Shown here: positions 1-36,161 of the stretch, piece by piece
How the letters are laid out: every line of letters starts with the position of its first letter
Position numbering within the stretch: the stretch's first letter is position 1
Made by a program: the position numbers and the translations under genes
Virus record (IMG/VR): IMGVR_UViG_3300008259_000030
Coordinates: 1 to 64,000 of that record
From: a virus
Length of the DNA: 64,000 bases
Reading direction: 5' to 3' (one strand)
The notes under the pieces: model-generated
What the model was told of the DNA's origin: nothing
What the model saw: only the letters and a program-made list of their open reading frames with translations
Databases searched by the model: none

Positions 1-744
1 CATTAACGGTTGACCTGACCAGTTTGAATGTCTGTTGTCATCTTCAGCACCAAACGCTGCTACGTTATAAGGTCCGCAACTATAAAATCCTGCCGGAGAT
101 GCTGTGTGATATTGAAAACAGCAAGGACACTGTGGGTAGCAACCAAAGAATACTGAACAACTGAAATGACCACAACAGTTTGTGTCACCGCCGTAAGCAC
201 AAGCAATCCAAATACCGTTAAAATAATTACAGATAACACCGCAGTTATCGTTAAATGGTCCTGTAAAACAGTGTGATTGGTTAACAAAGCAACAGAACAA
301 TGATGTTCCTGTAGAGCACATACCGCGGCCACCTGCTCCGCCCTGGGCACAGATACAACCGTTTTGAGCAGCAGCACACTGAGTCCAACATACTCCAGTA
401 GGATCTGAACAACCACGGAAACACAATGTGGAACTGTTACCACAACTGTTACCAATAGTACCTCTTACAAAATCGGTTGAACTAACACAAATTGTTTTTT
501 TAGAATAAGCACCTGCGTTACCTGGAGTACCTCCACCGCAGCAGCACATCTGTGCTCCGGATCCGCCAGCACCCCATACTTCAATTACTGCTCTACCAGT
601 TGATGGAGGATTCCAACAAAACCCGTTACAAAAGTTTGTATACATGGTACCTGGTGTGAACACATAGATTCTGCCTGTTTCTAGGTTTTCCTCTACGCGA
701 CCAGTTGTTCTTGATCTTATTAAATTTTGAAACGATGTAGGCAT
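1..744 (-). CDS. Cys/Gly-rich virion protein, copy 1 (C-terminus off the left edge)
   Basis: The start is ATG at 742-744 and the frame stays open to base 1, so the C-terminus is missing. The protein begins MPTSFQNLI and carries the block WGAGGSGAQMCCCGGG near residue 60, followed by many short Gly and Cys runs. It is a paralogue of the next two genes, sharing the MPTSF start, an E-x-LE-x-GRI segment, WGAGGSGA-CCCGGG, CSTGTS and the WSG motif. Gly-rich GAGGSG segments of this type are typical of glycine-rich domains at the ends of phage tail fibres, so a fibre-tip or adhesin role is an inference. The Cys density is very unusual for a virion protein made in the cytoplasm. No catalytic motif is visible. 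Confidence 0.8.
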   Translation of the reverse strand, partial: MPTSFQNLIRSRTTGRVEENLETGRIYVFTPGTMYTNFCNGFCWNPPSTGRAVIEVWGAGGSGAQMCCCGGGTPGNAGAYSKKTICVSSTDFVRGTIGNSCGNSSTLCFRGCSDPTGVCWTQCAAAQNGCICAQGGAGGRGMCSTGTSLFCCFVNQSHCFTGPFNDNCGVICNYFNGIWIACAYGGDTNCCGHFSCSVFFGCYPQCPCCFQYHTASPAGFYSCGPYNVAAFGAEDDNRHSNWSGQPLM

Positions 745-755
745 TATTTTATCTC

Positions 756-1751
756 TTATAAATCTCTTACTGTACCATCTTGTACGAATCGGATACGAAT
801 AGCACCATGACCGCCACGATATGCGTGATCACGCACATCAGGACAAGGAAACGGTGGTAATCCTGGAAACCCTGGCGGAACAAATGGTATACATCCGTTA
901 CCGTCATAACATCCGCAAGTTCTACCGCCAGTCCAACATGAGTGAGCACCGTCAACACCGCGACCTGGTTGGCGTCCTGCTACGTTTAACCCATATAAGA
1001 AACCATTTAGTGCCATTCCGCTCCAGCTAGAGTGGCCGCTATCGCCCTCATTAGTGTAGGTAATTTCCGCACCGCAATCGCTGTAATATCCCGGTGGCGT
1101 TGCTACGTGGAAAAATGTAGAACATGGACAGCTTGGTGTACATCCAAAGAAAGTAGCACGGCTAAAACCGCCTCTTGCGTTAACATCGCCACCAAACGCA
1201 TCAGCACAACATGATGCTGTACCTGTTCCGTAGTTACAGATAATTCCACAGTTGGCATTAAATGGACCAGTTCCGCAGAATCCGCCAGCTTGGAAACAGC
1301 ACCACATTGATGTTCCTGTAGAACAGAAAGTAGTACCTCCGCGGCCACCTTGAGCACACATACATCCGTTAGTTGTTGTAGAACGCCAGCATACACCTGT
1401 GGGTTCTGAGCAACCTCGGAAACATAAATCGTTTGAATTGCCGCAGCTAAATCCAATAGTTCCTGTAATTAAGCAGCCAGAAGCTACACAGATAGTTTTC
1501 TTAGAGTAAGCTCCAGGATTACCTGGAATACCGCCACCGCAGCAGCACATCTTAGCACCACTACCGCCAGCACCCCAAATTTCAACTGTAGCAAGTCCGC
1601 TAGCAGGAGCAATCCAACAAACTTCGCCGCACATCTTTGTTCGGACATTACCATGAGTGTATGCCCAAATTCGACCTTGTTCGAGATTTTCTTCTTCGAA
1701 TGCGATAAACGGTAATTTTGCCTGAACAAGACCTTTAAATGATGTTGGCAT
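756..1751 (-). CDS. Cys/Gly-rich virion protein, copy 2 (331 aa)
   Basis: Complete paralogue of its two neighbours, 331 aa, with about 30 cysteines (roughly 9% of residues). Visible landmarks are MPTSFKGLV at the start, WGAGGSGAKMCCCGGG near residue 60-75, CSTGTSMWCC near the middle, a CGCYDGNGC cluster, and a C-terminal GGHGAIRIRF. The last resembles the closing GG-x-G-x-(V/I)-x-I strand of glycine-rich tail-fibre domains. The gap to copy 1 is 11 bases and to copy 3 one base, so the three are surely co-transcribed. Function is inferred as a distal adhesion component. Whether the cysteines form disulfides or bind metal cannot be told from sequence. Confidence 0.85.
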   Translation of the reverse strand: MPTSFKGLVQAKLPFIAFEEENLEQGRIWAYTHGNVRTKMCGEVCWIAPASGLATVEIWGAGGSGAKMCCCGGGIPGNPGAYSKKTICVASGCLITGTIGFSCGNSNDLCFRGCSEPTGVCWRSTTTNGCMCAQGGRGGTTFCSTGTSMWCCFQAGGFCGTGPFNANCGIICNYGTGTASCCADAFGGDVNARGGFSRATFFGCTPSCPCSTFFHVATPPGYYSDCGAEITYTNEGDSGHSSWSGMALNGFLYGLNVAGRQPGRGVDGAHSCWTGGRTCGCYDGNGCIPFVPPGFPGLPPFPCPDVRDHAYRGGHGAIRIRFVQDGTVRDL

Positions 1752-1752
1752 C

Positions 1753-2721
1753 TTATTGTCCCTCTATAAATCTAATACGGATAGCACCGTGTCCGCCGCG
1801 ACGACCGTGGTCGCGAACTTCAGGACATGGATTAGGAGGAGTTCCAGGATAACCTGGACCTACACCTGTGTAGCATCCTTCGTTGTCATAACAGCCGCAG
1901 CCGCCGCCAAATCCCCAACAGTACGACCAGGGGATGCCGTGTGTTGGTTGTCTTGACTGTGCGTTTAATGCTGATTGATGTTGATGGGCACCTTGGCCCG
2001 ACCAGTTTGAGAATTCGTTGCTGTTTTCTGTACCAAATACTACAACTCCGCCGCATTTAGAAACATATCCCGGTGGTGTTGCTACGTGGTAGGTAAAAGA
2101 ACAGATGCATGGGCCTTGACAGCCTAAAAATGCTGTACAGCTAAATCCGCCGCAACGGTTAACGTCGCCGCCGTAACCACAGGCAATCCAAATTCCACCA
2201 AAGTAATTACAGATCGTTCCGCAGTTATCGTTGTATGGGCCTCGAGAACAATATCCGTTAGCAGAAAAACAGCAATATAATGACGTTCCTGTAGTACAGA
2301 AACTTCTACCGCCTGCTCCGCCCTGGGCACATAAGCAGCCCGACGCCCCGCAGTTTCCTGTCCATGTTACACCAGTTGCGTCTGAGCAACCTCGGAAACA
2401 GATAGCATCTGCGTTACCGCAGCTAAATCCCACTGCTCCGCAGACATAACAGCCCGATTCTACTCGGATAGCTTTCTTTGAATAAGCACCTGCGTTGCCA
2501 GGAAGTCCTCCTCCGCAGCAGCACATACGAGCACCACTACCGCCAGCACCCCAAATTTCTATAACTGCTGTACCTCTAGCAGGGGCTTTCCAACAAATTT
2601 GATAGTTGGTATAGTTGTTGCCCGGTGTATATAGCCAGATTCTGCCACGCTCGAGATGTTCCTCGGTAGCGTAGATACCATCGCCTTTGATCTGAACTAA
2701 ATTCCTAAATGATGTTGGCAT
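1753..2721 (-). CDS. Cys/Gly-rich virion protein, copy 3 (322 aa)
   Basis: First gene of the Cys-rich triplet in transcription order, 322 aa. It follows the same plan: MPTSFRNLV, a GRIWLYTPG segment, WGAGGSGARMCCCGGG, CTTGTSLYCC, a CGCYDNEGC cluster and the C-terminal GGHGAIRIRFIEGQ. Divergence is concentrated between the conserved Cys/Gly blocks, as expected for surface loops on a shared scaffold. It lies downstream of two small structural-type genes and the 2006-aa fibre, which supports a role in the adhesion apparatus. The family is recognised only as glycine-rich tail-fibre-like; the exact role is unknown. Confidence 0.85.
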   Translation of the reverse strand: MPTSFRNLVQIKGDGIYATEEHLERGRIWLYTPGNNYTNYQICWKAPARGTAVIEIWGAGGSGARMCCCGGGLPGNAGAYSKKAIRVESGCYVCGAVGFSCGNADAICFRGCSDATGVTWTGNCGASGCLCAQGGAGGRSFCTTGTSLYCCFSANGYCSRGPYNDNCGTICNYFGGIWIACGYGGDVNRCGGFSCTAFLGCQGPCICSFTYHVATPPGYVSKCGGVVVFGTENSNEFSNWSGQGAHQHQSALNAQSRQPTHGIPWSYCWGFGGGCGCYDNEGCYTGVGPGYPGTPPNPCPEVRDHGRRGGHGAIRIRFIEGQ

Positions 2722-2742: not shown

Positions 2743-3075
2743 TCAAGCAGATGCTACTACCCACCCGTATGTTGAGCCTGTATAAACCAAAGTAATGATC
2801 GATCCATTAACGTCGATGGTTAAATCGTCGTTGATGTTTTGAATTTTAGCACCATTTCTACCAACTGTAATGTTGTTAGTTGCTGCTACACCGCCAATAT
2901 CGATAATCTGTATCGTATCGTTGAGTAGTAACGTAGAAACGTTTGGTAGTGTGATTGTAAAAGCACCACCCGCACTAGACGCTAAAATGCGATCATTGAC
3001 TGAAGCGTTAAAGGCTGCAGAAACTTCACGAATAACGTTATTCGCTGTGCCTGTTGTTGTAATATATCTTCCCAT
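2743..3075 (-). CDS. small beta-rich structural protein (110 aa)
   Basis: ATG start at 3073-3075. The protein begins MGRYITTTGTANNVIREVSA and continues with alternating hydrophobic and Thr/Ser residues typical of beta-strands (FTITLPNVS, DTIQIIDIGG, ITVGRNGAKI, GSIITLVYTG) and ends YGWVVASA. This pattern resembles short trimeric fibre or connector domains, with an INDDLTIDVNGS repeat-like segment. No domain is firmly recognised. A CATAAATA late-promoter-like box lies 21 bases upstream, and the gene heads the Cys-rich triplet. A small virion protein in the adhesion module is the best guess. Confidence 0.75.
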   Translation of the reverse strand: MGRYITTTGTANNVIREVSAAFNASVNDRILASSAGGAFTITLPNVSTLLLNDTIQIIDIGGVAATNNITVGRNGAKIQNINDDLTIDVNGSIITLVYTGSTYGWVVASA

Positions 3076-3095: not shown

Positions 3096-3103
3096 TATTT
3101 ATG
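3096..3103 (-). promoter_or_regulatory. late-promoter-like -10 box (CATAAATA)
   Basis: On the minus strand this reads CATAAATA, one base from the T4 late consensus TATAAATA. It lies 21 bases upstream of the 110-aa gene and overlaps the stop of the gene before it. Read by a gp55-type sigma factor, which this window encodes. The spacing suits a short leader. Confidence 0.45.
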
Positions 3104-3419
3104 CTGTTGGTGTTTCTATGCCGAACGCTACTGCACTAACGTTAGCACCGCTGGAATAGACTACTAAAAGTCTACCTGCGTCCATAACAATACCTGTGCG
3201 TTCTAGAACACCCTTGCCCAAAACTTCTGTGTCAAATTCAATCCATTCTGCTGCTACGGGCGTTGCAGCAGCGGATACAGCTACTCTTACAGCAACCGCT
3301 TGGTTGCCTCTGTTACAGATTGACAAGGTAACCACCGAAAATGTGTCCGACGGAACTGTGTATACTGTTGTATTTGTAGCTGCTGCTATATCGTTAGCAC
3401 CTAATCTACCTGTTGCCAT
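3099..3419 (-). CDS. small beta-sandwich-like virion protein (106 aa)
   Basis: ATG at 3417-3419. The sequence shows MATGRLGAN, then TTVYTVPSDTFSVVTLSICN and VRVAVS, an ERTG-I-V-MDAG turn and a closing strand ANVSAVAFGIE. The same order of strands (TVYTVP-like start, NRG-like turn, xRxG-V-AGD-like turn, VSAxVxGxE end) recurs in the proteins at 15569-15898 and 29572-29943, so the three look like one family of small beta-sandwich proteins placed between fibre genes. A fibre accessory or decoration role is inferred only. The end of the gene overlaps the promoter box of the next gene. Confidence 0.78.
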   Translation of the reverse strand: MATGRLGANDIAAATNTTVYTVPSDTFSVVTLSICNRGNQAVAVRVAVSAAATPVAAEWIEFDTEVLGKGVLERTGIVMDAGRLLVVYSSGANVSAVAFGIETPTA

Positions 3420-3431
3420 TTAAAATCTCCA

Positions 3432-6400
3432 TTAACTATGTAAAAATAAGTTCATAGCCACCGGTACTCCATTAATACCACCAATGAAATTCATCGGAGC
3501 AAGCACGTTAATGCGGCCGCCTGTGGTGGTTGTAATGTAGTCATTAGCTACAAATATCTGACCTGCTGTGAGAGTATTTACGTTCAGGGTACTGGAACCT
3601 GAACCAATTTGTGAAGCAATATAAGCCTTAATTGCTCTCTGAGTAGGTATAACTGAATCTGAATCCTGTGTAAAGAACGGATCTGTACTGAATTCAGTGA
3701 TTGTAGCACCCCCTGTGCCCAATTCTACCGAGCCCAAGCTGAGCTCTTGTAGTCCTGCAATGTTAAACGCATCTGCGTTTAGTGTAGCAGTACCTGTACT
3801 TTGTTCGACTGTGAATAATCCACCAACTCGGAAGTTACCGTCCTGGTCTGTTGATGTGTAGAACACACGACCACCATTGCTTTCCACAGTTTCATTGGTT
3901 GGAATTGGATCAATCAGTGGCAATCCTGGATAATTTGTACTGGTGAAATTACCAGTACCAATATCTAAGAAGTCATGGCCTGTTAGTCGAACCTGTGAAT
4001 AACGTATCCTAATTTCAAAAGGATCTTCGTGTGGCACAGCTTCGGGTATTTCAATAGGTGGGCTTACCTGTAATCTAGCTGTATAAGGCCCGGTTCCTAG
4101 TAGTTGTGTAACAGTGACTAATTTATAGAACTGTCCAGGTAAACTGTTAAATTCAACGTTTGATCCTGGTACCGGTATAGAATATAATCCCTTAACGTCA
4201 ACATAGCTGCCATTTTGGAATATATCAGCATAACCATCTCCAACTACCGAACCTGTAGCCACTTCCCAATCAGCACCCCTAGTGATAAATGTAGGATTCG
4301 CTAGTACACCGTTGCCTACTCGCACTGTATGTGGTGCTTCGTAGGTATTATTAGGATCTGTGACAGTTAACGCAGGCGGAGTTACTGAACTATAACCGCT
4401 ACCTGGTTCTATTACTCTAAATTCCACAATCTTAGTATCAGCAACTCTAGCACGTACATAAGCTCTTGTTCCGGTTACCAATGCTGCCGGACCTGCTACT
4501 GTTGACTGCGGAATAATCCATAATGGAGATCCGTTTGGATTGCCAAATATTGGTCTTCCTGTAGTAGTATAAGCAGCAGTACCCTGTGTCCAAGTACGGC
4601 CATCCTGTGATTTCCAATGTGCTGTAGAAGAAGCAGATCCTGTTGCTACAAAGGTACCTTGCCCGTATCCTACTTTACCAACAGTGATAGTGTTTAATAC
4701 TCCGGTCCAACTAGTTCCATCGTTGCTAACAGCAATATTAGATCCTGTAGAACTCACAGCCACAAACACATTATTTCCATACGCAATACTGCTCCAGTCG
4801 GCGAGCCCTGTAAGAGCAGCCGAAGTCCATGTAATACCGTCTAAACTATATGCCGAGGTTACTGATCCAGGAGCACCTGCCGTAGAAACAGCAAAGAATC
4901 TGCCTTTACCGTAGGTAATGCTTGGCCAATTTGTACGTGTAGGTAAATTATTAGCACCGTTAGCCCAAGTTGTACCATTAGTAGATACTAGTGGAGTGGC
5001 AGAATCCGCTCTAACAGCAACAAAACGACCTCCACCAAACGCTACAGATGTTACATCACTAATTTGCGGTATAGTTGCTGAGTTCCAAGTTACTCCGCCG
5101 TCTGTACTATAAGCTGCTCCTGTGGCAGCATTTCCTAATGCTACAACGTAGGAAACTCCGCCAATATCCCCACTGGCTATCGCTGTCCATATGTTGATTG
5201 ATGGTAGAGTAGATGTTTGCCAAGTTGTACCATTGGTTGAATAATATGCTGTGTTAGTTGATACTCCGCCATTCGCCAGTAGTATTACAAAATTACCACC
5301 CCTGCCTTTGCCTTCATAGGAAAATGTTAATATTTCTCCGACTACTAACCCTGGAGTTGAATCTACGGTTTCGATACGTATTCTAAGATCATTGGCAGGT
5401 GTTGTTCCTCCTAATGAAGTGCCTAAGATGGTCAACAAATTATTATTAACATAATTTTGTCCGGCTTGATTTAAAGTAACAGTATATGTTTCACCATTTC
5501 TAGTTATATTAAATGTAGCACCGGTTCCAGCACCGCCTGAAGCAGACACATTGGTAAATGTTTGTCTTACATTGGCATAAACAGCATCTGATTGACCAAC
5601 TACTGAGCCTCCTGAGACGCTAGGAGAACTTTCGGTAGGTGCTGCTACTGTTACTCTTGGTTCAATGATGTATAATGATGAGGGATCTGGTGCTACAATA
5701 GCTGTACCTGGCACAACATGATCCCATCCACTAGTGCCAGTTGACTCTCTATAAACTCCTGCTAGTTTAGAACCAGCATTGTAGGTGTTGATATAACCAT
5801 ATTGACCTACACCAGTTCCGGATTGGATATAAATTCTCATACCAATATAAGCTGAACTGGTTTGATCGTCAGTGGCTGCTAGGGTAATTGAACTAGTTGT
5901 TCCACTTTGAGCAACGTTTTCTGAACTTAGATAATCAAGGCCGCCAAATTGTCCTGAACTGTCGTCATTGTCTAACAATCTAACTTCAAAAATACCGCCA
6001 TCTCTAGTCTCATTACCAACAGTAGTAAATGATGTTCCTGGTCCGTTAAATGTAAACGTGCCTGAGGTATAATCAATACCAGCATTTTGATATTCAACAC
6101 GTAGTACCTGTTGACCGTTGGTTAATACTTTTGTGATCAGTGCTTCTTCGTATCGGTTATTAACTATACCTGTGATTGCTGTTTCTGTAGCATCAACCCC
6201 TTCTGCTACACAACCGTATGTTCCGTATGAGCTGTTACCGTTAGTAGCACGTATCTTACCACCGTCTTCTGCTAGATACCCAATATGTCCGTAATATCCA
6301 AACACAGATACAAGTTCTGTTCTACCTAGATTGGTACACCATACACCAATACCGTCTGAAATTACTTGTGTAAAATCGTTACTGACGATAGATTTATTAC

Positions 6401-9400
6401 CGCCGTTGTGTAGATCTCCATCGATCTTACATCCCACACAGGCTGTACCAAATGTTGTTACGTTTTGTACATAACAAGATCTTGTGGTAATCCATACTCG
6501 TTGGTCATTAGGGCCCCAGCCTGGATCAAGACTTACGTAAGCACCGGCTGTTGGTCTATAAGTTCCATATGCGTTAGGTCCAACTAATGTTCCTGTTAAT
6601 CCCTGTACAGTCATATTTCTAACACCTGTACTGTTTCTAACCAAGAACATGTTTTCTGTTATAGAACCAGTCACGCCATTAACATACCATTCTGCTGATG
6701 TTAAAGTTCTATAATTACCAGTGTAGACTAAATCAAACTTGATAGCATCGATGTATTCGCCAACATCTCTAGCACAGGCAGCAAGACTGTAAGTGTAAGA
6801 TGGGTAAGTTAACGCAATGTACGCATGAACTTCAGCAATAATAAATTGTCTATTCAATTCTAGTTGACGCACCGCCGCATACACATTATAACTTGATGCT
6901 GCAGCATTTGAGCCAGCCATTGTAGGAGCACTACCTACTGCGTTTAGATAAAAATCAACATGATCATAGGCATTTTGAACTAGTGTTTCAACTAGCGTGC
7001 CTTCTGTAGCAGTTGCGAAAGGCTTAGTTTGACTCTGTGTTTCAGTATTTGGATTTGTACCAGTTGTTGTTTTTGTTACAGTTGTACCTTCTACAATATC
7101 AGCAATAATAGCTTTAATTCGTGTAAGAGCATCTAAACTCTTAGGAACATCAGTAGCATCAATCTGACTAGCAGCAGGTCTAATGTTAGTAGAACGTAGT
7201 TCGTCGCCTACTACCGCAGTGTCTACAGGAACAATAATAGGTAGCGTTTCATAGAATACACCAGTCTTAACTAGTATAGTTCTTTGAGGTTTGACTTCTG
7301 CTCCCACACTTCCTAATGTACCGCTAGAAATTGCTGTAGTAATTAGTGTTTTTAGATTAGCGATTTCTGTAAATGAAGAATCTTCAGCTACATAATCAGT
7401 GTCAATAATCTGTAAAATTCTATCATTAACAGGAACACTGTTAGTAACTTGATAATTTGTTCCAGGTGCTGTGTTGAGTAATACACAGGTGTTAACTAAA
7501 GTATTGACAGCATAGTTTATGGCTGCTACTGTTTCTTCTTTTTGTCCTAGGCCGTAGAAAGTTGAAGCATTTGTAACATATTCAACCGCAGCCTGTCTAG
7601 ATCTTACGTTTCCGCCGTGACGGATATCCCATAACAATGCGTCAATGATTAAACCTACATCACGCTCGCACTTGGTTGTATCATAAGAAAAACTAGATAC
7701 AAACGGTGAAATGTTGTTTGTGATTTGATAGTTAATCCACTGTACAGTTTCCCTCTGTACAAACTGTCTATTAATTTCTAATATAAAAGCAGCTTCAGGA
7801 TTTCGTGTCCCTTTTTCAATTTGATCAGCTGCGTATCTTACAGTTCTCCATGGTTTATCTAGTGTGATACCGTATGTCGGTGCCACTTCATCAGTTCCGT
7901 CAAGACTTACATAATACAACTGATCAACTTCGCCCCAATATTTCCACTCGGGTGCTGCGGCACTATTGACAACTAGAACTTGTCCATCTGAACCAATAGG
8001 TAATCTAGTTGGTCCAGCACCGCCGTAATAAACAAGATCGCCCTGTGTAGTTAATACCGACGATTCTTGACCGTTGGCTAATAGATTCCAGTATGTTCCT
8101 GAAATGTCTACGTCTGGTCTGTTTGTTGCTGTAGCAGATGTGTGTGCTAATACACAGATATAACTGTTAGGTCCATAACGAACAGCATCACCTAGTACGT
8201 AACCATAACCGTTAGCCCATGTTCCTAACCAACGAATGCCCGGATTTAATTGTTCCCAATAGGTTAGATTAGGTGGTTTCTGATTGTTATTATCTTCTAT
8301 AGCAACATAGGTGTAACCGCTGAGTCTTACTACGTCTCCAACTTTATAGTTGGTAGAACCTGACCAGTCCTGTTGAAATTTAAATGCTGTGGTAAACAGA
8401 TCCCAATTCTGAGCACCTGTGACTGCCTCTGTTGGTTTGATATTACTATGGTTAGTGACTGCTACATACGCATATCCACCATAGGTAACAATGTCACCAG
8501 GCTGATAAACACTTGACGAATTCCAACTGTTTTCAAATTGTAATCCTTCTAGGAATTGTGCCCAGTAACCCGAATCTTCATCTTGTTCAAATGTTCTTGA
8601 TACACTAGAAGTATGTTTTTGTAAACAGATGTAGACACCGTTACCAGTCTTAACAAGATCGTTTACTTTATAATTTTGATCTACAGGATCCCACGCACCT
8701 AAGTATTCAACACCTTGGTTGAAATAATCCCACTTGCTTTGATCTGCTTCAAGACCCAGTGTAAAGGTTGCTGCGGCAGGGTGTCCTTCATTACATACAT
8801 ACGTAGTTCCGCCAAAAGAAACTACATCATTAATTTTATATCGAGTTGACGGAGCCCAAGGACCTTTCCAGTCAAACGCTTCTGAGAACTGATCCCATTT
8901 ATTAATATCTGCCTTTTGACCTGCGGTTAGTCTATCTAAACCTTCAAGTCCCATTGCGGCAGTTGGAGCAGATATGTGGCCTAGATTACAGAGATATGTG
9001 TTGCCGCCGTACTTGACAATATCGTTAAGTCTATATCTGGTGTCAGTGGTCCAGTCACCTCGCCATTCAAATCCCTCAGCAAACTGATCCCATTTAGACT
9101 GTGTACTATCGCCCAAGTCAAGGTCTACTTCAAGGCCATCGCTGGCGTTAGCAGCAGATGTATGACCTACCAAACAGATGTATAGCTGTCCGCCGTATTT
9201 GACTATGTCGTTGACAAAGTATTCTGTGTCGACCGTCCAGTCACCTCTCCATGCTTGTCCATCGCTGGCTTGATTCCAACGTGCTGGGAAGTTATCCGCA
9301 TCTACATAGAAATTTGAATCAGCTGTATGCCCAATTACGCAGATGTAAACTTTACCGTTTACTCGAACTACGTCATCTTTAAGGTAAGAGGTACCCGCAG

Positions 9401-9452
9401 CCCATTCGCCTTTCCATATAAATCTAATTCTACCTAATTTAAACTCTGCCAT
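3432..9452 (-). CDS. giant tail fibre: CBM5/12-like repeats, BNR-like repeats, DGNFRVG module (2006 aa)
   Basis: Residues 1-465 hold eight repeats of the form W+GxWxxxTxYxxxDIVxYGGxxYxCxxGHTS, like the carbohydrate-binding module 5/12 fold. A beta-helix-like part follows, with WRTVRYAADQ near 535 and GTYGCVAEGVD near 1085. Residues about 1390-1645 contain BNR/sialidase-type repeats (STDGGVTWNS, YGNNVFVAVSS). The C-terminus has RLTGHDFLDIGTGNF, TSTDQDGNFRVGGLF near 1866 and PTQRAIKAYIASQI near 1940. The same order is found in the next gene, so the two are duplicated fibres. The likely role is host-surface recognition by glycan binding; this is inference from the modules. A GATAAATA late box lies 25 bases upstream. 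Confidence 0.9.
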   Translation of the reverse strand: MAEFKLGRIRFIWKGEWAAGTSYLKDDVVRVNGKVYICVIGHTADSNFYVDADNFPARWNQASDGQAWRGDWTVDTEYFVNDIVKYGGQLYICLVGHTSAANASDGLEVDLDLGDSTQSKWDQFAEGFEWRGDWTTDTRYRLNDIVKYGGNTYLCNLGHISAPTAAMGLEGLDRLTAGQKADINKWDQFSEAFDWKGPWAPSTRYKINDVVSFGGTTYVCNEGHPAAATFTLGLEADQSKWDYFNQGVEYLGAWDPVDQNYKVNDLVKTGNGVYICLQKHTSSVSRTFEQDEDSGYWAQFLEGLQFENSWNSSSVYQPGDIVTYGGYAYVAVTNHSNIKPTEAVTGAQNWDLFTTAFKFQQDWSGSTNYKVGDVVRLSGYTYVAIEDNNNQKPPNLTYWEQLNPGIRWLGTWANGYGYVLGDAVRYGPNSYICVLAHTSATATNRPDVDISGTYWNLLANGQESSVLTTQGDLVYYGGAGPTRLPIGSDGQVLVVNSAAAPEWKYWGEVDQLYYVSLDGTDEVAPTYGITLDKPWRTVRYAADQIEKGTRNPEAAFILEINRQFVQRETVQWINYQITNNISPFVSSFSYDTTKCERDVGLIIDALLWDIRHGGNVRSRQAAVEYVTNASTFYGLGQKEETVAAINYAVNTLVNTCVLLNTAPGTNYQVTNSVPVNDRILQIIDTDYVAEDSSFTEIANLKTLITTAISSGTLGSVGAEVKPQRTILVKTGVFYETLPIIVPVDTAVVGDELRSTNIRPAASQIDATDVPKSLDALTRIKAIIADIVEGTTVTKTTTGTNPNTETQSQTKPFATATEGTLVETLVQNAYDHVDFYLNAVGSAPTMAGSNAAASSYNVYAAVRQLELNRQFIIAEVHAYIALTYPSYTYSLAACARDVGEYIDAIKFDLVYTGNYRTLTSAEWYVNGVTGSITENMFLVRNSTGVRNMTVQGLTGTLVGPNAYGTYRPTAGAYVSLDPGWGPNDQRVWITTRSCYVQNVTTFGTACVGCKIDGDLHNGGNKSIVSNDFTQVISDGIGVWCTNLGRTELVSVFGYYGHIGYLAEDGGKIRATNGNSSYGTYGCVAEGVDATETAITGIVNNRYEEALITKVLTNGQQVLRVEYQNAGIDYTSGTFTFNGPGTSFTTVGNETRDGGIFEVRLLDNDDSSGQFGGLDYLSSENVAQSGTTSSITLAATDDQTSSAYIGMRIYIQSGTGVGQYGYINTYNAGSKLAGVYRESTGTSGWDHVVPGTAIVAPDPSSLYIIEPRVTVAAPTESSPSVSGGSVVGQSDAVYANVRQTFTNVSASGGAGTGATFNITRNGETYTVTLNQAGQNYVNNNLLTILGTSLGGTTPANDLRIRIETVDSTPGLVVGEILTFSYEGKGRGGNFVILLANGGVSTNTAYYSTNGTTWQTSTLPSINIWTAIASGDIGGVSYVVALGNAATGAAYSTDGGVTWNSATIPQISDVTSVAFGGGRFVAVRADSATPLVSTNGTTWANGANNLPTRTNWPSITYGKGRFFAVSTAGAPGSVTSAYSLDGITWTSAALTGLADWSSIAYGNNVFVAVSSTGSNIAVSNDGTSWTGVLNTITVGKVGYGQGTFVATGSASSTAHWKSQDGRTWTQGTAAYTTTGRPIFGNPNGSPLWIIPQSTVAGPAALVTGTRAYVRARVADTKIVEFRVIEPGSGYSSVTPPALTVTDPNNTYEAPHTVRVGNGVLANPTFITRGADWEVATGSVVGDGYADIFQNGSYVDVKGLYSIPVPGSNVEFNSLPGQFYKLVTVTQLLGTGPYTARLQVSPPIEIPEAVPHEDPFEIRIRYSQVRLTGHDFLDIGTGNFTSTNYPGLPLIDPIPTNETVESNGGRVFYTSTDQDGNFRVGGLFTVEQSTGTATLNADAFNIAGLQELSLGSVELGTGGATITEFSTDPFFTQDSDSVIPTQRAIKAYIASQIGSGSSTLNVNTLTAGQIFVANDYITTTTGGRINVLAPMNFIGGINGVPVAMNLFLHS
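3823..3875. repeat. 53-base identical repeat, copy 1 (in the 2006-aa fibre)
   Basis: Identical base for base with 9934-9986 in the paralogous fibre gene. It codes for the TSTDQDGNFRVG module. Such identity between otherwise diverged genes suggests recent recombination or gene conversion. Confidence 0.8.
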
Positions 9453-9494: not shown

Positions 9495-12400
9495 TTAACC
9501 TAAATCCCTACCAACTTCTTGCCCGTCTAAGTTGCTGTTAAAAGCGTCTGAAAACATGCTCATAGCCAGCATCATACCCGAAGCCCCTTTTCTCATATTC
9601 ATATTTCTTGGTAGATTTACGTAGGTATTTGTAGTACTACCAATATTATTTGGTCCACCTATTCTAACAGTACCAGCAATTAATGTACCTGTAGCTGCTT
9701 CTGAACCTCCACCAGAAATACGTCTTTCAATATAGGCTTTAATAGCCCTTTGTGTAGGAACAACATTATTTGAATCAGCAGCAAATGTAACATCTGTTGA
9801 AAATTCACGTATAACTACGCCCGTACCACCTACACGAATCCCGCCTAATCTTAGTTCTGACAGTCCGCCTAAGTCAAAATAGTCAGCACTAATTGTAACT
9901 ACACCAGTGGCTTGCTCAACAGCAAACAGCTCTCCAACTCGGAAGTTACCGTCCTGGTCTGTTGATGTGTAGAACACACGACCACCGCCCCTGTAATAAA
10001 CTTCATTTTCGGGTGCTAGATTTATAAGATTAGTAGTGGGATAATTTGTTTGGGTAAAATTACCTGTTCCTATCTCTAAGAAATCGTGACCTGTTAGTCG
10101 AACCTGACTGTATTTTTCACGTATTTCTACTGGTGAATCATGTACAGGTGTTGTAGTTCTGTTGAAATCTGGACCTACCCTAATTGCTAATCTGTAGTTA
10201 CCAAATGAACCACTTAATACCTGTACTGTTAATACTCTATAGACTCTGTTATCTGTACCATCAGATGCTACCGCAGCATCATTGTCAGCTAACACTAGAT
10301 ATTTGTTTAATCCTGCTACCGCGGCACTTGGATTAGTTAATGGATATTCTCTTTCTAACCACGATAATCCCAATCTAGAAGAATAAGCTGTTGAACCGGT
10401 TCCAGAAAATAGAACAAACTTTCTATTAGCAAATATTATATGAGCCCAGTCGTCAGTAGATGGAGCTGCTGCGGCATCCCAAGTATTGCCATCGTCTTCT
10501 GACAACGCTATTTGATTACTGTTTCTAGCAATTAATATTATATGATTATTACCGTAGGCAAGATCTGACCATTCTGCTGTGCCGGTTATAGTTCTTAGCA
10601 ACCAGGTTTGACCGTCTACGGAAATAGCTACCTTATCATTGTTTGTAGAAATTGCTATAAAATTGTTAGCACCGTGTTTAACTTTGATCCATTGAGCACT
10701 AACTGGTAACGATGCTGTTTGCCATGTTACTCCGTCATCGTCGGAATACAACGTACTGGTTGAACCGTTGGAAATAACTACCCATTTTCCATTTAGATAA
10801 TCAACTGATGACCAATTAGCATTAGGTACTGTTATTGTAGTCCAGCTAATTCCGTTGGTGCTTCTTGCGAATACTGTGCCATAAGCTACTGCTATGTACA
10901 CACCGTTACCAAATTTTATGTCACGCCAGTCTCTTTGTTGAGAAATTGTAGTGCTAGTCCACCCTTCTCCGTTAGCTGAATATACTATTTGAGCTAATCC
11001 TTCGCTTTGGTAAGTAATTCCTACAAATTTATCAGTACCAGCAGTAACTCCGGCCCATGGTCCCGACACCGGCAGTACTGATGGTAGCCAATTAATGGTA
11101 TTAATTTCAAAGTTAGCACCAGTTCTAACTATTCTTGGCATGCCATCAACAATTATATTGCCACCTAATTCGTAAACATCAGCGTATCCGTCGCCGGATA
11201 CTGTTACTCTGGTTGTTGATGTCTTGTATCCAACACCTCGGTTAAGGAATGTAGGGTTAGCTAATACTCCATTTCCTATCCTAAATTCGTATTCAGGATT
11301 TGATGTTGATACAGGATCGCTAAGAGTAAACACCGGTTGAGCATTATAACCGCTACCGGGTTCCCATATTTTTATTGACTGTATTCTTCCGCCTGTTATA
11401 ACAGGTCTGCCTCTAAATGTTGCCCCATATTGAAATGTGTCAACAGTCCCAGAATCTTCGGATAGTAGTACCCATCTTCCTCTATCAGCAGTGTCTGGGA
11501 CAAATGCTAGGGCATGTCTATTAAGACTGCCGCTGTCTAATTGTTTTAATTCCCAAGAAAATCCTCCGCTATCAGATACTGCCGCATACTGTGTAGAGGA
11601 AGAACTGATCGCAACAAATAATCCTTGATCGTAGCTGATTCTACGCCATGCTGTGTCAAACGGCAACACTGATAGATACCAAGTAAGCCCATCAAAGCTG
11701 TAAGCTACCGCATTGCTATTTGAGGATATTGCTACAAAGCGATTGTTTCCATAGCACATATCAGTCCACTGCGGTTGTGTTGAATCGCCAAACGCAGGGA
11801 TATCTGAACCTGCCGTCCATGTTACTCCCGAATCGGTGCTAACTGCTGTTTTACCATTAGTTGAAATTATAACAAATTTGTTTTTACCATGAGCTACAGC
11901 TCTCCACGGTGCTGATGTTGGTGTCGAGCTTAATGTCCATGAAGATGTATTTACTATTACCGATGTTGTTAAGGTTGGTGCGGTAGCTACAAACGTTCCG
12001 TTACCGCCTGCAATATTAGTACAATTAGAAAATCCAAGAGCAGTACCCACATCGGCTACACTAAAGGTAAATGATCCAGAGATCCATGTTGCTACCATAG
12101 TAGAAGTTTGACTAGTTACTGCTGCTATACGAGATCCGTCCCAGGCCACTGAGGTATAAAGTTGAGCATTGTTAGCAGAACTAGCTACAGATAGATTAGT
12201 TTCGTCATTGCCTATATAGATAGCTCCTACACTACCGTCTGCTGGTCTTCCTGCGGCAACAAACCTATCTATCTCTTTGATATAAATTGCGTCTAAGAAA
12301 TATCTTCGATCGTAGGGAGAAGAATCAGCGGAGTATGCCGGCGGTGCTGTAATAACACGTGGTTCAATCCTATAAACTGATGTAGTATCTAATAATGCCG

Positions 12401-15188
12401 GTAAAGGGTACCCAGGAATAACGTGAGTCCATCCTAGAGCACCATCATACTCATTATATACATCTATTCTTTTTGTAACTATATCGTAAGAACCAATTGT
12501 TCCATATTGACCTGTACCGGTTCCGCTGGTGATAATTATTCTAGCACCAATATAATCAGCTGAGAATCTTTCGTCGTTTGAGGCAATAGTAATACCGGTA
12601 GTATCGCCGCCTTGAGCATTGTTACCGGTAGACTGGAATCCGCCACCGCCTAAAAATCCCCCTTCTTCAGGATCTAGTAATCTCCACTCGAATATTCCAC
12701 CATCTCTAAACTCGTCTACAATCACAGACGCCCCAGCACCCGATCCTAAGAAACTCATTGTTGCTGAAGTGTAATGTTCGCCCGCATTGCTGAACTCTAA
12801 ATTTAAAATTTCGTCGTTGGCTTCTCCGGAGAATGCTGAGACTACTATTGCTTCGCCTGTTCGGTTATTAACAGAACCTTCTGCTGGGGTTTCTGTTTCG
12901 TCTACACCTTCTGCTACACAGCCGTATGTTCCGTATGAGCTGTTACCATTGGTAGCACGTATTTTGCCCCCGTTTTCCGCTAGGTATCCCATGTGTCCAT
13001 AGTACGAGAACACAGAAACTAATTCAGATAAACCGTTATTGGTAACCCATGCTCCAATACCGTCTGATAAGATCTGCGTAAAATCGTTAGCAACGATAGA
13101 TTTGTTACCGCCTCCATGTAATGCTCCATCTACTTTTAATCCGGTACATCCGTTGCCAAATGTAGTTACGTTTTGAACATAGCAGGATTTTGTGGTAATC
13201 CATACAGAGCTGTCAGCGGTTCCAGATCCTGGATCCAAACTAACATAAGCACCAGCAGTTGGTCTTCTGGTACCATACTGATTGATACTGCTGAGAGTTC
13301 CGTTGAGACCTCGTAACGTCATATTTCTAATGCCCGATCCATTGTTTACGTAGAACATGTCTGACAATCTATAGTCTAAAGGATCAGGATATGGATCACC
13401 ATCAACATCGTATGAAATATTATTAGGATCGTATAGCGGTTCTATGATTGTGCTTCTAAGTTCTTCTCCAACAATAGCAACATCTCTAGGAACTTTAATT
13501 GGTAAAATTTCTGAATAGACGCCCGATTTGACAAAAATTGTAGCTGGGCCCACGGCAAAATTACAGGCATATCTCACAGTTCTAAAAGCACTGTTTAAAC
13601 TAGTACCATTGTCTGGAAGGTCAGCACCTTCTCTGCTAACATAATAAACTTTTTGTATCTGACCAAATGTTTCCCAAGAAGGAGCATTGTCAACTACTTT
13701 TAGAGTTTGTCCTGCAACTCCTATAGGCAGTCTTGACTGACCTATAGTACTGCCGTCTTCGGTTTCGTCATATACTTTAATGTCGCCTTGATATCTTAAA
13801 CTGTTAGTAGGCTCACCTCTAATCAATAAAGCCCATAGATTACTATCATAGTCGTTGTCAGGACGCTGATTAATATTTGAGGCTAAATGTTTTACTAGAC
13901 ATCTGTAAGTGTTATCCTCAAATACAACAATATCACCAATGGCATAAGTTTCATCAATTTCCCATTCTTTTCTATATTTTTCTCCAGGAATTACTAATTC
14001 CCAAGCAATTGCGTCGATATTAGGATCTGTTATGTTGTCATCAATAGCAGCATAGAATTGTCCGTTACGTCTAACCACTTCGCCTACAAAATAAGCTGTA
14101 TTATTAATCCATTCTCCCGCTACTCTAAAACCAATGTTTAACAGTTTCCAGAATGCTATAGAGCTGTCATCGTTTTGTGCTGCTGAAGTAGCAGGATTTT
14201 GCCCAGTGTTATTATTAAGGGCTTCGTATGAATATCCGCCATATCTAACAACGTCGCCGCGTTGATATACAGTATTAGAATCCCAATCATTTTCAAATTC
14301 AAAACCGGGAATATATACCTGCCACTTGGTTAAATCAAATTCGTCAGTGCTGGTATGATAATCCACACAGATCCATACATTTCCGCCAAACTTAACCACA
14401 TCGTTGAGTTTATATCTAACGCCAGGGGTCACTGGGTCTACTATAGCAGGCACCCAATTGCCTTTGTATTCTATGTTTTTATAAACAATTTCCCAGTCTG
14501 CTTGATTAGATTCTAGTCCGTCTGCTGCTGTTAACGCAGATGTGTGACCGTCTATACATCTATAAACTATACCGCCGTATTTGACAATGTCATTTTTTCT
14601 ATAGCGTCGATTAGTAGTCCACGCCTGTCTCCACTGTTGTGCTGGATTAACTATTTCCCAATTGGCAAAATTGCCTTCAAGACCTGTGGTTATATCGCTG
14701 GAAATATTTCTAGCTGTACATCTATATACAATGCCGTTATATTTTACAACGTCTCTTACAGAATAAGTAGTTGACGGTTGCCAATCTCCTTTCCAATCAT
14801 CTGATCTAGCATAAGATACCCAATGACTTTGATCGCCTTCTAGTCCAATAGCTGCTGTGTTAGATGTGTGTGAGCTAATACAGACATAAGAAATACTTTT
14901 ATATTTGACAATATCGCCCACGTTATAGGTTGTAAATGGTGTCCAATCTCCACGCCATTCGTATCCGTCAAACATTAATTCCCAACGCGGTTCGTTGGAG
15001 GCAGGAATAGTTTCTTGATTTATAAAATTTAAATCAACATAAAAACTTTGAGTAGATGATGTATGTCTTTTGATACAAACGTAACTCTTACCACCAAATC
15101 TAACAACATCGTCAACGATGTAATTTAAACTTGGTTGCCAGTCACCTTTCCAGGTAAACTTTAATCTACTGATCTTATATTCTGCCAT
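9495..15188 (-). CDS. giant tail fibre paralogue: CBM5/12-like and two BNR-like blocks (1897 aa)
   Basis: Paralogue of the 2006-aa fibre. Residues 1-460 contain eight CBM5/12-like repeats (WKGDWQPSLNY, WRGDWTPFTTY and so on, each with a DIVKYGGxxYxC core). A beta-helix-like part has FRTVRYACNF near 543 and GTYGCVAEGVDETET near 758. BNR-like repeats (STDSGVTWTAGS, YGNNRFVAISS) come in two blocks, about residues 970-1250 and 1370-1640, one more than in its sister. The C-terminal part keeps RLTGHDFLEIGTGNF, TSTDQDGNFRVGELF near 1743 and PTQRAIKAYIERRI near 1814. A 53-base stretch of DNA is identical to the sister gene. Inferred role: host-surface binding fibre. Confidence 0.9.
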   Translation of the reverse strand: MAEYKISRLKFTWKGDWQPSLNYIVDDVVRFGGKSYVCIKRHTSSTQSFYVDLNFINQETIPASNEPRWELMFDGYEWRGDWTPFTTYNVGDIVKYKSISYVCISSHTSNTAAIGLEGDQSHWVSYARSDDWKGDWQPSTTYSVRDVVKYNGIVYRCTARNISSDITTGLEGNFANWEIVNPAQQWRQAWTTNRRYRKNDIVKYGGIVYRCIDGHTSALTAADGLESNQADWEIVYKNIEYKGNWVPAIVDPVTPGVRYKLNDVVKFGGNVWICVDYHTSTDEFDLTKWQVYIPGFEFENDWDSNTVYQRGDVVRYGGYSYEALNNNTGQNPATSAAQNDDSSIAFWKLLNIGFRVAGEWINNTAYFVGEVVRRNGQFYAAIDDNITDPNIDAIAWELVIPGEKYRKEWEIDETYAIGDIVVFEDNTYRCLVKHLASNINQRPDNDYDSNLWALLIRGEPTNSLRYQGDIKVYDETEDGSTIGQSRLPIGVAGQTLKVVDNAPSWETFGQIQKVYYVSREGADLPDNGTSLNSAFRTVRYACNFAVGPATIFVKSGVYSEILPIKVPRDVAIVGEELRSTIIEPLYDPNNISYDVDGDPYPDPLDYRLSDMFYVNNGSGIRNMTLRGLNGTLSSINQYGTRRPTAGAYVSLDPGSGTADSSVWITTKSCYVQNVTTFGNGCTGLKVDGALHGGGNKSIVANDFTQILSDGIGAWVTNNGLSELVSVFSYYGHMGYLAENGGKIRATNGNSSYGTYGCVAEGVDETETPAEGSVNNRTGEAIVVSAFSGEANDEILNLEFSNAGEHYTSATMSFLGSGAGASVIVDEFRDGGIFEWRLLDPEEGGFLGGGGFQSTGNNAQGGDTTGITIASNDERFSADYIGARIIITSGTGTGQYGTIGSYDIVTKRIDVYNEYDGALGWTHVIPGYPLPALLDTTSVYRIEPRVITAPPAYSADSSPYDRRYFLDAIYIKEIDRFVAAGRPADGSVGAIYIGNDETNLSVASSANNAQLYTSVAWDGSRIAAVTSQTSTMVATWISGSFTFSVADVGTALGFSNCTNIAGGNGTFVATAPTLTTSVIVNTSSWTLSSTPTSAPWRAVAHGKNKFVIISTNGKTAVSTDSGVTWTAGSDIPAFGDSTQPQWTDMCYGNNRFVAISSNSNAVAYSFDGLTWYLSVLPFDTAWRRISYDQGLFVAISSSSTQYAAVSDSGGFSWELKQLDSGSLNRHALAFVPDTADRGRWVLLSEDSGTVDTFQYGATFRGRPVITGGRIQSIKIWEPGSGYNAQPVFTLSDPVSTSNPEYEFRIGNGVLANPTFLNRGVGYKTSTTRVTVSGDGYADVYELGGNIIVDGMPRIVRTGANFEINTINWLPSVLPVSGPWAGVTAGTDKFVGITYQSEGLAQIVYSANGEGWTSTTISQQRDWRDIKFGNGVYIAVAYGTVFARSTNGISWTTITVPNANWSSVDYLNGKWVVISNGSTSTLYSDDDGVTWQTASLPVSAQWIKVKHGANNFIAISTNNDKVAISVDGQTWLLRTITGTAEWSDLAYGNNHIILIARNSNQIALSEDDGNTWDAAAAPSTDDWAHIIFANRKFVLFSGTGSTAYSSRLGLSWLEREYPLTNPSAAVAGLNKYLVLADNDAAVASDGTDNRVYRVLTVQVLSGSFGNYRLAIRVGPDFNRTTTPVHDSPVEIREKYSQVRLTGHDFLEIGTGNFTQTNYPTTNLINLAPENEVYYRGGGRVFYTSTDQDGNFRVGELFAVEQATGVVTISADYFDLGGLSELRLGGIRVGGTGVVIREFSTDVTFAADSNNVVPTQRAIKAYIERRISGGGSEAATGTLIAGTVRIGGPNNIGSTTNTYVNLPRNMNMRKGASGMMLAMSMFSDAFNSNLDGQEVGRDLG
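9934..9986. repeat. 53-base identical repeat, copy 2 (in the 1897-aa fibre)
   Basis: Second copy of the 53-base stretch at 3823-3875, in the same place of the paralogous protein (TSTDQDGNFRVG). Confidence 0.8.
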
Positions 15189-34629: not shown

Positions 34630-35259
34630 TTATTTGAGTCCTGAAATAATCTTTTTCAGGCTCTCTGCTATGTATTGCTGTGCCTTTGGATCGCCTTGTA
34701 CTTCCCTTGCTATTTTAAATGCCTTGTAACCACCTGCTTGATTCATCAAGTGTTCATAAACTGGTGTTGGATAAGCACCAGGAGCTGAAGGTTGAGCAAC
34801 AACGTCAACGGTAATAATTTCAAAACCTTTGACTTTGCCGTCTCCATCAACATCACCGGAACCCCTCGAACTTACGCCTAATTTTACTCCGCTCTCCAAC
34901 ATGGTTTGAATTAATTGTCCCATAGGAGTAGGAAGTAGTTTTAATTTTCCGTAACCATTTGGACCGTCCATCCACATTTTTGTAATCATGTGACTGACAC
35001 GGTCTAGGTTGATACGTAGGTCTTCGGGGTGATCTACTTCTCCGAGAACTGAATAACCGCCCGCAATTTGATCATTGACAGTTTTGACAGCCCTAGCGAT
35101 TTCAGAGGAGGGGTAAACTCTCTGATTTTGGTTTCTAATATCGCCTTGGATACAGATACCATTCAGATGTAGAGTTTTACCGCCCTTATCATCTTCGGTA
35201 CTTTCAAGGACCAGCTGTGCTTGGTCGAAACTCAGATTTTCTCTTAGATAGTTTTTCAC
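34630..35259 (-). CDS. 21: prohead core protease gp21
   Basis: The start is GTG at 35257-35259, giving 209 aa, close to T4 gp21. The family is a herpes-assemblin-like serine protease. The catalytic His is probably in GEVDHPEDLRINLDRVSHMI and the catalytic Ser in KLGVSSRGSGDVDGDGKVKG. The protein cleaves scaffold and capsid proteins in the prohead. It lies between the acidic core protein and gp22, as in T4. The non-ATG start may lower its level relative to the scaffold. Confidence 0.92.
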   Translation of the reverse strand: MKNYLRENLSFDQAQLVLESTEDDKGGKTLHLNGICIQGDIRNQNQRVYPSSEIARAVKTVNDQIAGGYSVLGEVDHPEDLRINLDRVSHMITKMWMDGPNGYGKLKLLPTPMGQLIQTMLESGVKLGVSSRGSGDVDGDGKVKGFEIITVDVVAQPSAPGAYPTPVYEHLMNQAGGYKAFKIAREVQGDPKAQQYIAESLKKIISGLK

Positions 35260-35273
35260 CTAGATCGTTCCGA

Positions 35274-36161
35274 TTATCTGCTACCGCGGATGATTGATGT
35301 AGCATCTACACCACTTTCAGCAGTACCTTTCTTTTCAGCTCCATGTCCTTGGCTATTCTTGCTATAGAATGCTTTGGCGTTGGTGCCTCCAACTACGTTA
35401 ACATTACCGGTATTCATATCTTGTGGCTTTTGCTTTGTTAGGCCGTTACCCTTAATGGTACCGCCAGCTCCAGCGTAAGATGGGCTATCTTCTTTGCTAG
35501 AAAGAATGTTAGCAGTTGTACCGCCCATGTCGTTTTTACCTGCTACTGATGACTTTGTATTGTCAGCTTTTTCAGCAGCACCTTTCTTTTCAGCACCGTG
35601 ACCTGCTGGAACTTTCTCAACATATTCACGTACTGTTTCTAGATCAAATTCATCTTTCATCATGCCTGGCATGTTGTCCATGTCCATGTCGCTTGGACCG
35701 CCCATGTTATCAGCATCTGGCTCAGCATGGTCACCGCCGGCATATTTTGCGAAAGCAGCTTCTAGTTCGTCAACGATGTCTTTTAGATCGCCTTTAGTAG
35801 CTGGCTCATCGTCCTCGCCTTCTTCTTCACCTTCTTCGCCACCAAACTCTTCTTCGTCTTCTTCACCTTCACCCGGTGCTGCGATGTCTGTTTCGAGGTC
35901 GCCAGTTTCATCATCGCCTTCTGCGGTGATGTCTTCAAAATTTTCGTCTAGATCGTCTTCGTTTGTTTCGTCTAGATCTTCGTCTGCTGTTTCGTCTAGA
36001 TCTTCATCTTTGACTTCTTCGTCGATTTCAGAATCGATAAGATTTTCATAAATTTCACGGGATTTACCAACTACGTACTCGTGAAACATTTCTTCTGCTT
36101 TTTGTTGTTCGTTGTTCAGCAAGTGTTCTAACACTGCTGCGATTTGATTTTTATCTGCCAT
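35274..36161 (-). CDS. acidic prohead core protein, gp67-like (295 aa)
   Basis: The N-terminus (QIAAVLEHLLNNEQQKAEEM, FHEYVVGKSREIYENLID) is helical and is followed by a strongly acidic run from about residue 45 to 125 (DEDLDETADEDLDETNEDDL and similar). That is the plan of T4 gp67, a prohead core protein, but this protein is much longer than T4 gp67 (80 aa). The rest contains two copies of a GHGAEKKG(A/T)AE motif, possibly at or near gp21 cleavage sites, though I cannot confirm this. A strong Shine-Dalgarno (TTGGAGG) precedes the ATG. Confidence 0.75.
   Translation of the reverse strand: MADKNQIAAVLEHLLNNEQQKAEEMFHEYVVGKSREIYENLIDSEIDEEVKDEDLDETADEDLDETNEDDLDENFEDITAEGDDETGDLETDIAAPGEGEEDEEEFGGEEGEEEGEDDEPATKGDLKDIVDELEAAFAKYAGGDHAEPDADNMGGPSDMDMDNMPGMMKDEFDLETVREYVEKVPAGHGAEKKGAAEKADNTKSSVAGKNDMGGTTANILSSKEDSPSYAGAGGTIKGNGLTKQKPQDMNTGNVNVVGGTNAKAFYSKNSQGHGAEKKGTAESGVDATSIIRGSR

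Follow-up and report, generated by a model that had tools for sequence, protein, structure and literature searches.

Three tandem genes lie at the very start of an 83,489-base virus record (IMG/VR IMGVR_UViG_3300008259_000030), bases 1-64000 of which form the window, that is, the whole stretch of DNA analysed here. The portal protein of this virus shares 50% identity with its counterparts in jumbo T4-like phages, e.g., Phosso and PA5oct. All three genes are on the minus strand: P1 (1753-2721) encodes 322 amino acids including 30 cysteines, P2 (756-1751) 331 amino acids including 30 cysteines, and P3 (1-744), which is truncated at the contig start, 248 amino acids including 28 cysteines. In relatives, P3 orthologues are complete, with 320-322 amino acids and 31-33 cysteines. 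The genes of such trios are closely spaced, often with intergenic gaps of a few bases, and here the ATG of P2 lies one base past the TAA stop of P1. Pairwise identity among the three proteins is 57-63%. The first-pass annotation had described them as tandem paralogues with about 30 cysteines each, amounting to some 9% of the residues, and the open reading frames bear this out: the cysteine content is 9.1-11.3% in the trio versus 0.37% (72/19,499) in the 32 other window open reading frames tallied. The clusters that it had pointed out are also present, CCCGGG and CxTGTSxxCC in all three proteins and CGCYxxxGC in both complete copies, P3 ending before this position. P1 can be divided into an N-terminal helix, a predicted TNF-like beta sandwich and a loop region rich in cysteine and glycine.

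Gene neighbourhood in jumbo phages and cyanophages

The genes preceding the trio are on the same strand and encode tail proteins. Directly upstream of the trio operon is a large tail fibre of 2006 amino acids (3432-9452; phrog_9851), and a second one of 1897 amino acids (9495-15188; phrog_9851) precedes it. Both fibres have N-terminal arrays of CBM_5_12 repeats, chitin-binding-type carbohydrate-binding modules, seven in the former and six in the latter. Between the fibre and P1 are a small tail-fibre protein of 106 amino acids (3099-3419; phrog_11338), which has counterparts in the cultured cyanophages S-CAM3 (gp160) and P-SSM2 (PSSM2_302), and a small tail protein of 110 amino acids (2743-3075), the counterpart of which at the same place in S-CAM3 is gp159.

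In jumbo relatives the order is large fibre, 106-residue protein, protein of about 110 residues, cysteine-rich trio, protein of about 215 residues (phrog_9740), GT9-like protein of about 313 residues (phrog_8954) and Nol-like carbamoyltransferase. The same order is found in S-CAM3: fibre gp161, gp160, gp159, cysteine-rich gp158, gp157 and gp156 (36, 35 and 24 cysteines), gp155, gp154 and carbamoyltransferase gp153. That of P-SSM2 differs in detail, with fibre 301, 302, 303, cysteine-rich 304, 305, cysteine-rich 306, 307 and carbamoyltransferase 308, PSSM2_304 and PSSM2_306 having 36 cysteines each. Together with the predicted fold described below, this context supports the earlier assignment of the trio to tail-fibre-type proteins.

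Several other features of the neighbourhood deserve mention. The GT9-like glycosyltransferase and the Nol-like carbamoyltransferase lie downstream of the tail-tip genes in jumbo phages (contig L003, 9696-12439) as in S-CAM3 and P-SSM2. The usual role of a Nol-like carbamoyltransferase is O-carbamoylation of sugars, and the conserved pair suggests a sugar decoration tied to the tail module; the idea that the carbamoyltransferase acts on cysteine thiols was discarded for want of support. In S-CAM3 (gp149; contig L096, 13897-14253) and P-SSM2 (PSSM2_312; contig L093, 39636-39992), genes annotated as cysteine dioxygenase occur several genes downstream of the cysteine-rich proteins. They are probably cupins of the sugar cluster, the coincidence with cysteine-rich proteins being curious. 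The protein of about 215 residues (L003, 8966-9610, and relatives), which follows the cysteine-rich genes of the fibre locus, gives a confident AlphaFold model (pLDDT 93.7), but no PDB fold match below E 0.5 was obtained and neither Tfa nor gp25 was among the best 50; a role as a Tfa/gp25-type chaperone is not claimed. Finally, cysteine-rich phage genes are also present on PAOW01000006.1, which was assigned to a "Euryarchaeota archaeon" metagenome-assembled genome but is most likely a misbinned phage contig.

Family, predicted fold and conservation of the cysteines

Are these proteins peculiar to one virus? A search of viral metagenomes, as the first-pass annotation had proposed, found 163 relatives in IMG/VR, the longest contig measuring 364 kb, so the trio is no local oddity. 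The three window proteins match the profile of phrog_4205, a family of unknown function, over most of their length (E 6.6e-8, 5.2e-9 and 6e-10), as do 87 of 90 relatives and, with E-values down to 4e-20, the P-SSM2 proteins. The WGAGG...CCCGGG...GAYxKK block of the family resembles the glycine-run block of Pfam Gly_rich_2 (PF21722). The three window proteins gave no match to this Pfam family at E<=1, and weak matches were found in 4 of the 90 relatives (best E 0.0024); only S-CAM3 gp156, the cysteine-rich homologue at the same place, passes the curated threshold (33.9 bits; cut-off 24.3). A tblastn search of isolated phages with proteins of the window and of relatives produced no match, for one query even at E 10, and homologues in isolates were therefore reached via fold search and PHROG. 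The cyanophage members of phrog_4205 thus reached share the cysteine richness (24-36 residues in S-CAM3 gp156-158 and 36 in each of the two P-SSM2 proteins) and the gene order with the trio, but they are too divergent for tblastn and are annotated only as hypothetical.

A PDB sequence search with the profile of a 90-row non-redundant alignment gave no match at E<=10, and no solved homologue with these cysteines was found. The AlphaFold2 model built from this alignment has a pLDDT of 83.7 and a pTM of 0.83. Its best PDB match by Foldseek is the tail fibre of cyanophage Pam3 (gp24, 7ypx/7yfw; E 1.4e-5, probability 1.00, TM-score 0.38/0.47, rmsd 8.7 A), followed by the Bxb1 tail tip (E 1.1e-4) and the glycine-rich TG domains of ALK/LTK (E 1.5e-4 and weaker). 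The TG domains carry a glycine-rich lattice on a TNF-like sandwich, but they are animal receptor domains without a functional link to the phage trio. As Pam3 and the Bxb1 tip reach only low TM-scores (0.31-0.47, with rmsd about 9-13 A), the fold match is partial and supports the architecture without proving it. Among viral folds (BFVD), S-CAM3 comes first (1e-14) and P-SSM2 next (8e-10), and these are followed by glycine-rich-domain proteins of phages and giant viruses. The polyglycine domain of the S16 gp38 adhesin of the S16/T-even type was absent from the best 50 PDB fold matches.

Pam3 gp24 is built from an N-terminal helical part, a TNF-like domain and a glycine-rich one whose extended strands run about 5 A apart, and its variable distal tip has been proposed to bind the receptor (PMC9608196). 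The model appears to share the helix, the sandwich and the glycine-rich loops, and gp24 is likewise encoded by a myovirus tail-fibre gene, but gp24 is one protein forming a homotrimer, and neither "cysteine" nor "disulfide" appears in its paper (PMC9608196). The trio too has a tail-fibre context; no fold of a Tfa-type chaperone was found for its downstream neighbour.

The 90-row alignment has about 20 cysteine columns conserved at 88% or more, several of them at 100%. The first-pass annotation had asked whether the clusters are kept in relatives; they are, in these columns at 0.88-1.00. Since the first seeds contained cysteine, the search was redone with cysteine-free seeds. Starting from the cysteine-poor downstream neighbour of about 215 residues, an automatic rule found a cysteine-rich gene directly upstream at 67 of 74 loci; at the other seven the rule itself seems to have gone wrong through parsing or overlaps, and several of the contigs concerned were independently seen to have cysteine-rich copies at that site. 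With a cysteine-free DNA pattern for the C-terminal VRDHGxRGGxGA, 68 of 69 motif-bearing open reading frames had at least 6% cysteine (median 10%), the single low-cysteine one looking like a chance match. The return of cysteine-rich genes from cysteine-free seeds rules out selection bias from the initial seeds. When boundaries are drawn from our own reading of the predicted strands, cysteine accounts for 12.6% of the loop columns versus 5.1% of the TNF-like columns, and within the loops the cysteine and glycine columns have an entropy of about 0.5 bit versus 2.0 bits for the remaining columns. By inspection, the CCC of CCCGGG occupies the position of glycine runs in other glycine-rich domains. 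Judging from gene order, profiles and modelled fold, the family is a real, uncharacterised kind of predicted phage tail tip, shared by numerous related phages, among them cyanophages in culture.

A conserved set of three chains

The copy number is exactly three in 29 of the 33 virus records searched whole, many of which are closely related and hence not independent. The remaining four comprise one with three copies, one of them frame-broken, two with four copies and one 89-kb fragment with one copy near its end. In the first of these, IMGVR_UViG_3300010883_000060, the broken copy (35190-36142) results either from an error in sequencing or from decay of the subunit; the two records with four tandem copies (L168 and L169) have long branches. 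In ten records the set is split into a tandem pair and a third copy about 22 kb away, the total still being three, and the split-off copy adjoins a baseplate-type gene where examined. With a k-mer cut-off, 39 distinct tandem trios could be counted.

When the labels P1, P2 and P3 were mapped on a 72-row tree of 24 full trios, 4 changes sufficed versus 34 after shuffling, and one clade for each was not rejected (AU p 0.31-0.57); the labels were also placed on a larger tree. Divergence of the three genes thus most likely preceded that of the phages, and one gene cannot stand in for another. As far as phylogeny and position indicate, the copies are orthologous by position, three non-interchangeable subunits kept as a set. 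The simplest reading of such a set is that the three chains work together, and we infer from this a 1:1:1 heterotrimer. Comparable logic is seen in C1q, with its three distinct chains A, B and C. The four copies in two records and the two in P-SSM2 count against a fixed set of three.

The trio could instead form three separate homotrimeric tips, each paralogue being an adhesin for a different fibre or host. This is quite possible, though short of probable: the paralogues are divergent and position-specific, one copy stands apart beside a baseplate-type gene in the split records, and Pam3 gp24 is a homotrimer (PMC9608196), but a constant three in many phages is less expected if host range drove the gain and loss of tips, and the genes are tightly packed. 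That the proteins are no virion components at all, but secreted or intracellular cysteine-rich proteins placed by chance in a tail operon, is very improbable in view of the place right after tail-fibre genes kept in jumbo phages and cyanophages, the predicted fold resemblance to a virion fibre and the lack of an obvious signal peptide in the translations inspected.

The cysteines and a proposed tail tip

What do the cysteines do? The first-pass annotation had offered a tip cross-linked after release, or metal binding, and the sequences favour neither decisively. Cysteine parity per chain is random (60 even, 57 odd), the sums per trio are odd in 29 of 39, and the commonest state lacks a single core cysteine (42 of 120 rows). 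Odd counts and single losses argue against every cysteine being paired, be it inside one chain or inside a closed heterotrimer. Co-loss of cysteines revealed no clear disulfide pairs, the strongest candidate, T119/C195, being mostly one-sided. As to oxidants and their partners, DsbA was found in none of 15 large records and thioredoxin in one of them; glutaredoxin, which is unremarkable for T4-like phages, was found in 4 of 14 records. Erv1/ALR was found in 0 of 14, yet a control also matched nowhere, which makes this search uninformative.

Disulfides formed after lysis are our preferred reading of the role of the cysteines, for three reasons. Neighbouring glycine-rich strands are spaced in a way that would accommodate disulfides. 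Glycine-rich antifreeze proteins forming polyproline II bundles are predicted to have 2-4 disulfides (PMC10235112), and virions of Agrobacterium phage Milano are disulfide-networked (PMC10811340). Milano serves as an analogy, being a contractile-tailed phage with structural disulfides in its virion, but the 2.1% cysteine of its structural proteins is spread across sheath, tube and baseplate (PMC10811340), versus 10% in the proposed tip.

The cysteines might instead bind zinc, iron or copper, giving a cysteine-only, metal-rich tip that folds in the cytoplasm without oxidation. The many conserved CxC, CC and CCC motifs and synthesis by the phage in a reducing compartment speak for metal, and odd numbers and single losses would not trouble it. 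It is nevertheless distinctly unlikely: histidine reaches at least 70% in only two columns (0.72 each), the available part of its paper does not present the fold neighbour Pam3 gp24 as a metalloprotein, and no metalloprotein family was matched in the searches. Alternatively, the cysteines may stay reduced and serve as small, weakly polar substitutes for glycine or serine in tight strand packing, with redox state irrelevant. The location of CCC at the glycine runs of other domains, the frequent single losses and the failure to find a phage-encoded oxidant (subject to the uninformative Erv1/ALR search) are in its favour. It remains an unlikely reading, as the near-invariance of about 20 cysteines exceeds what is expected of a residue exchangeable with serine, alanine or glycine, and extracellular virions are exposed to oxygen.

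The best reading of the sequences and model is a receptor-binding tail tip with a glycine-rich lattice pinned by cysteines, probably via disulfides formed after lysis. In each chain a short helix at the N-terminus would be followed by a TNF-like beta sandwich and distal glycine-rich extended loops like those of Pam3 gp24, but, unlike in Pam3 gp24, many loop positions would be cysteines, in CCCGGG, CxC and CC motifs. P1, P2 and P3 would function jointly, the simplest arrangements being a 1:1:1 heterotrimer or three distinct tips on one fibre. The cysteines would be reduced during assembly and oxidised after lysis, and would then pin neighbouring extended strands, which at the Pam3 spacing would be within disulfide reach, both within and between chains. 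This fixed scaffold would bear the variable loops that meet the host surface. We give about an even chance to the proposal as a whole, namely distal receptor-binding fibre tips of a T4-like jumbo phage in which the chains act together and post-lysis oxidation sets a scaffold for variable loops. Its narrower form, a tip of three co-inherited, non-interchangeable paralogues at 1:1:1 whose lattice dozens of cysteines, reduced inside the cell, would staple once lysis exposes them to oxidation, is rather doubtful.

TNF-like and glycine-rich fibre tips are already known, as is phrog_4205 as a listed family. A literature search covering few subscription journals found no description of cysteine-rich glycine-rich fibre tips and no virion proteomics for any of the homologues, and within that literature neither the framework of cysteines nor the retention of three copies appears to have been described. 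S-CAM3, S-CAM1 and P-SSM2 are cultured, and therefore the question is directly testable. Phage fibre tips determine host range, and a widespread family that combines a near-invariant cysteine framework with variable loops and is retained as a trio suggests an undescribed way to build a rigid, possibly redox-switched adhesin in a reducing cytoplasm. If true, a heterotrimeric receptor-binding head set by redox would be the first such description for phages.
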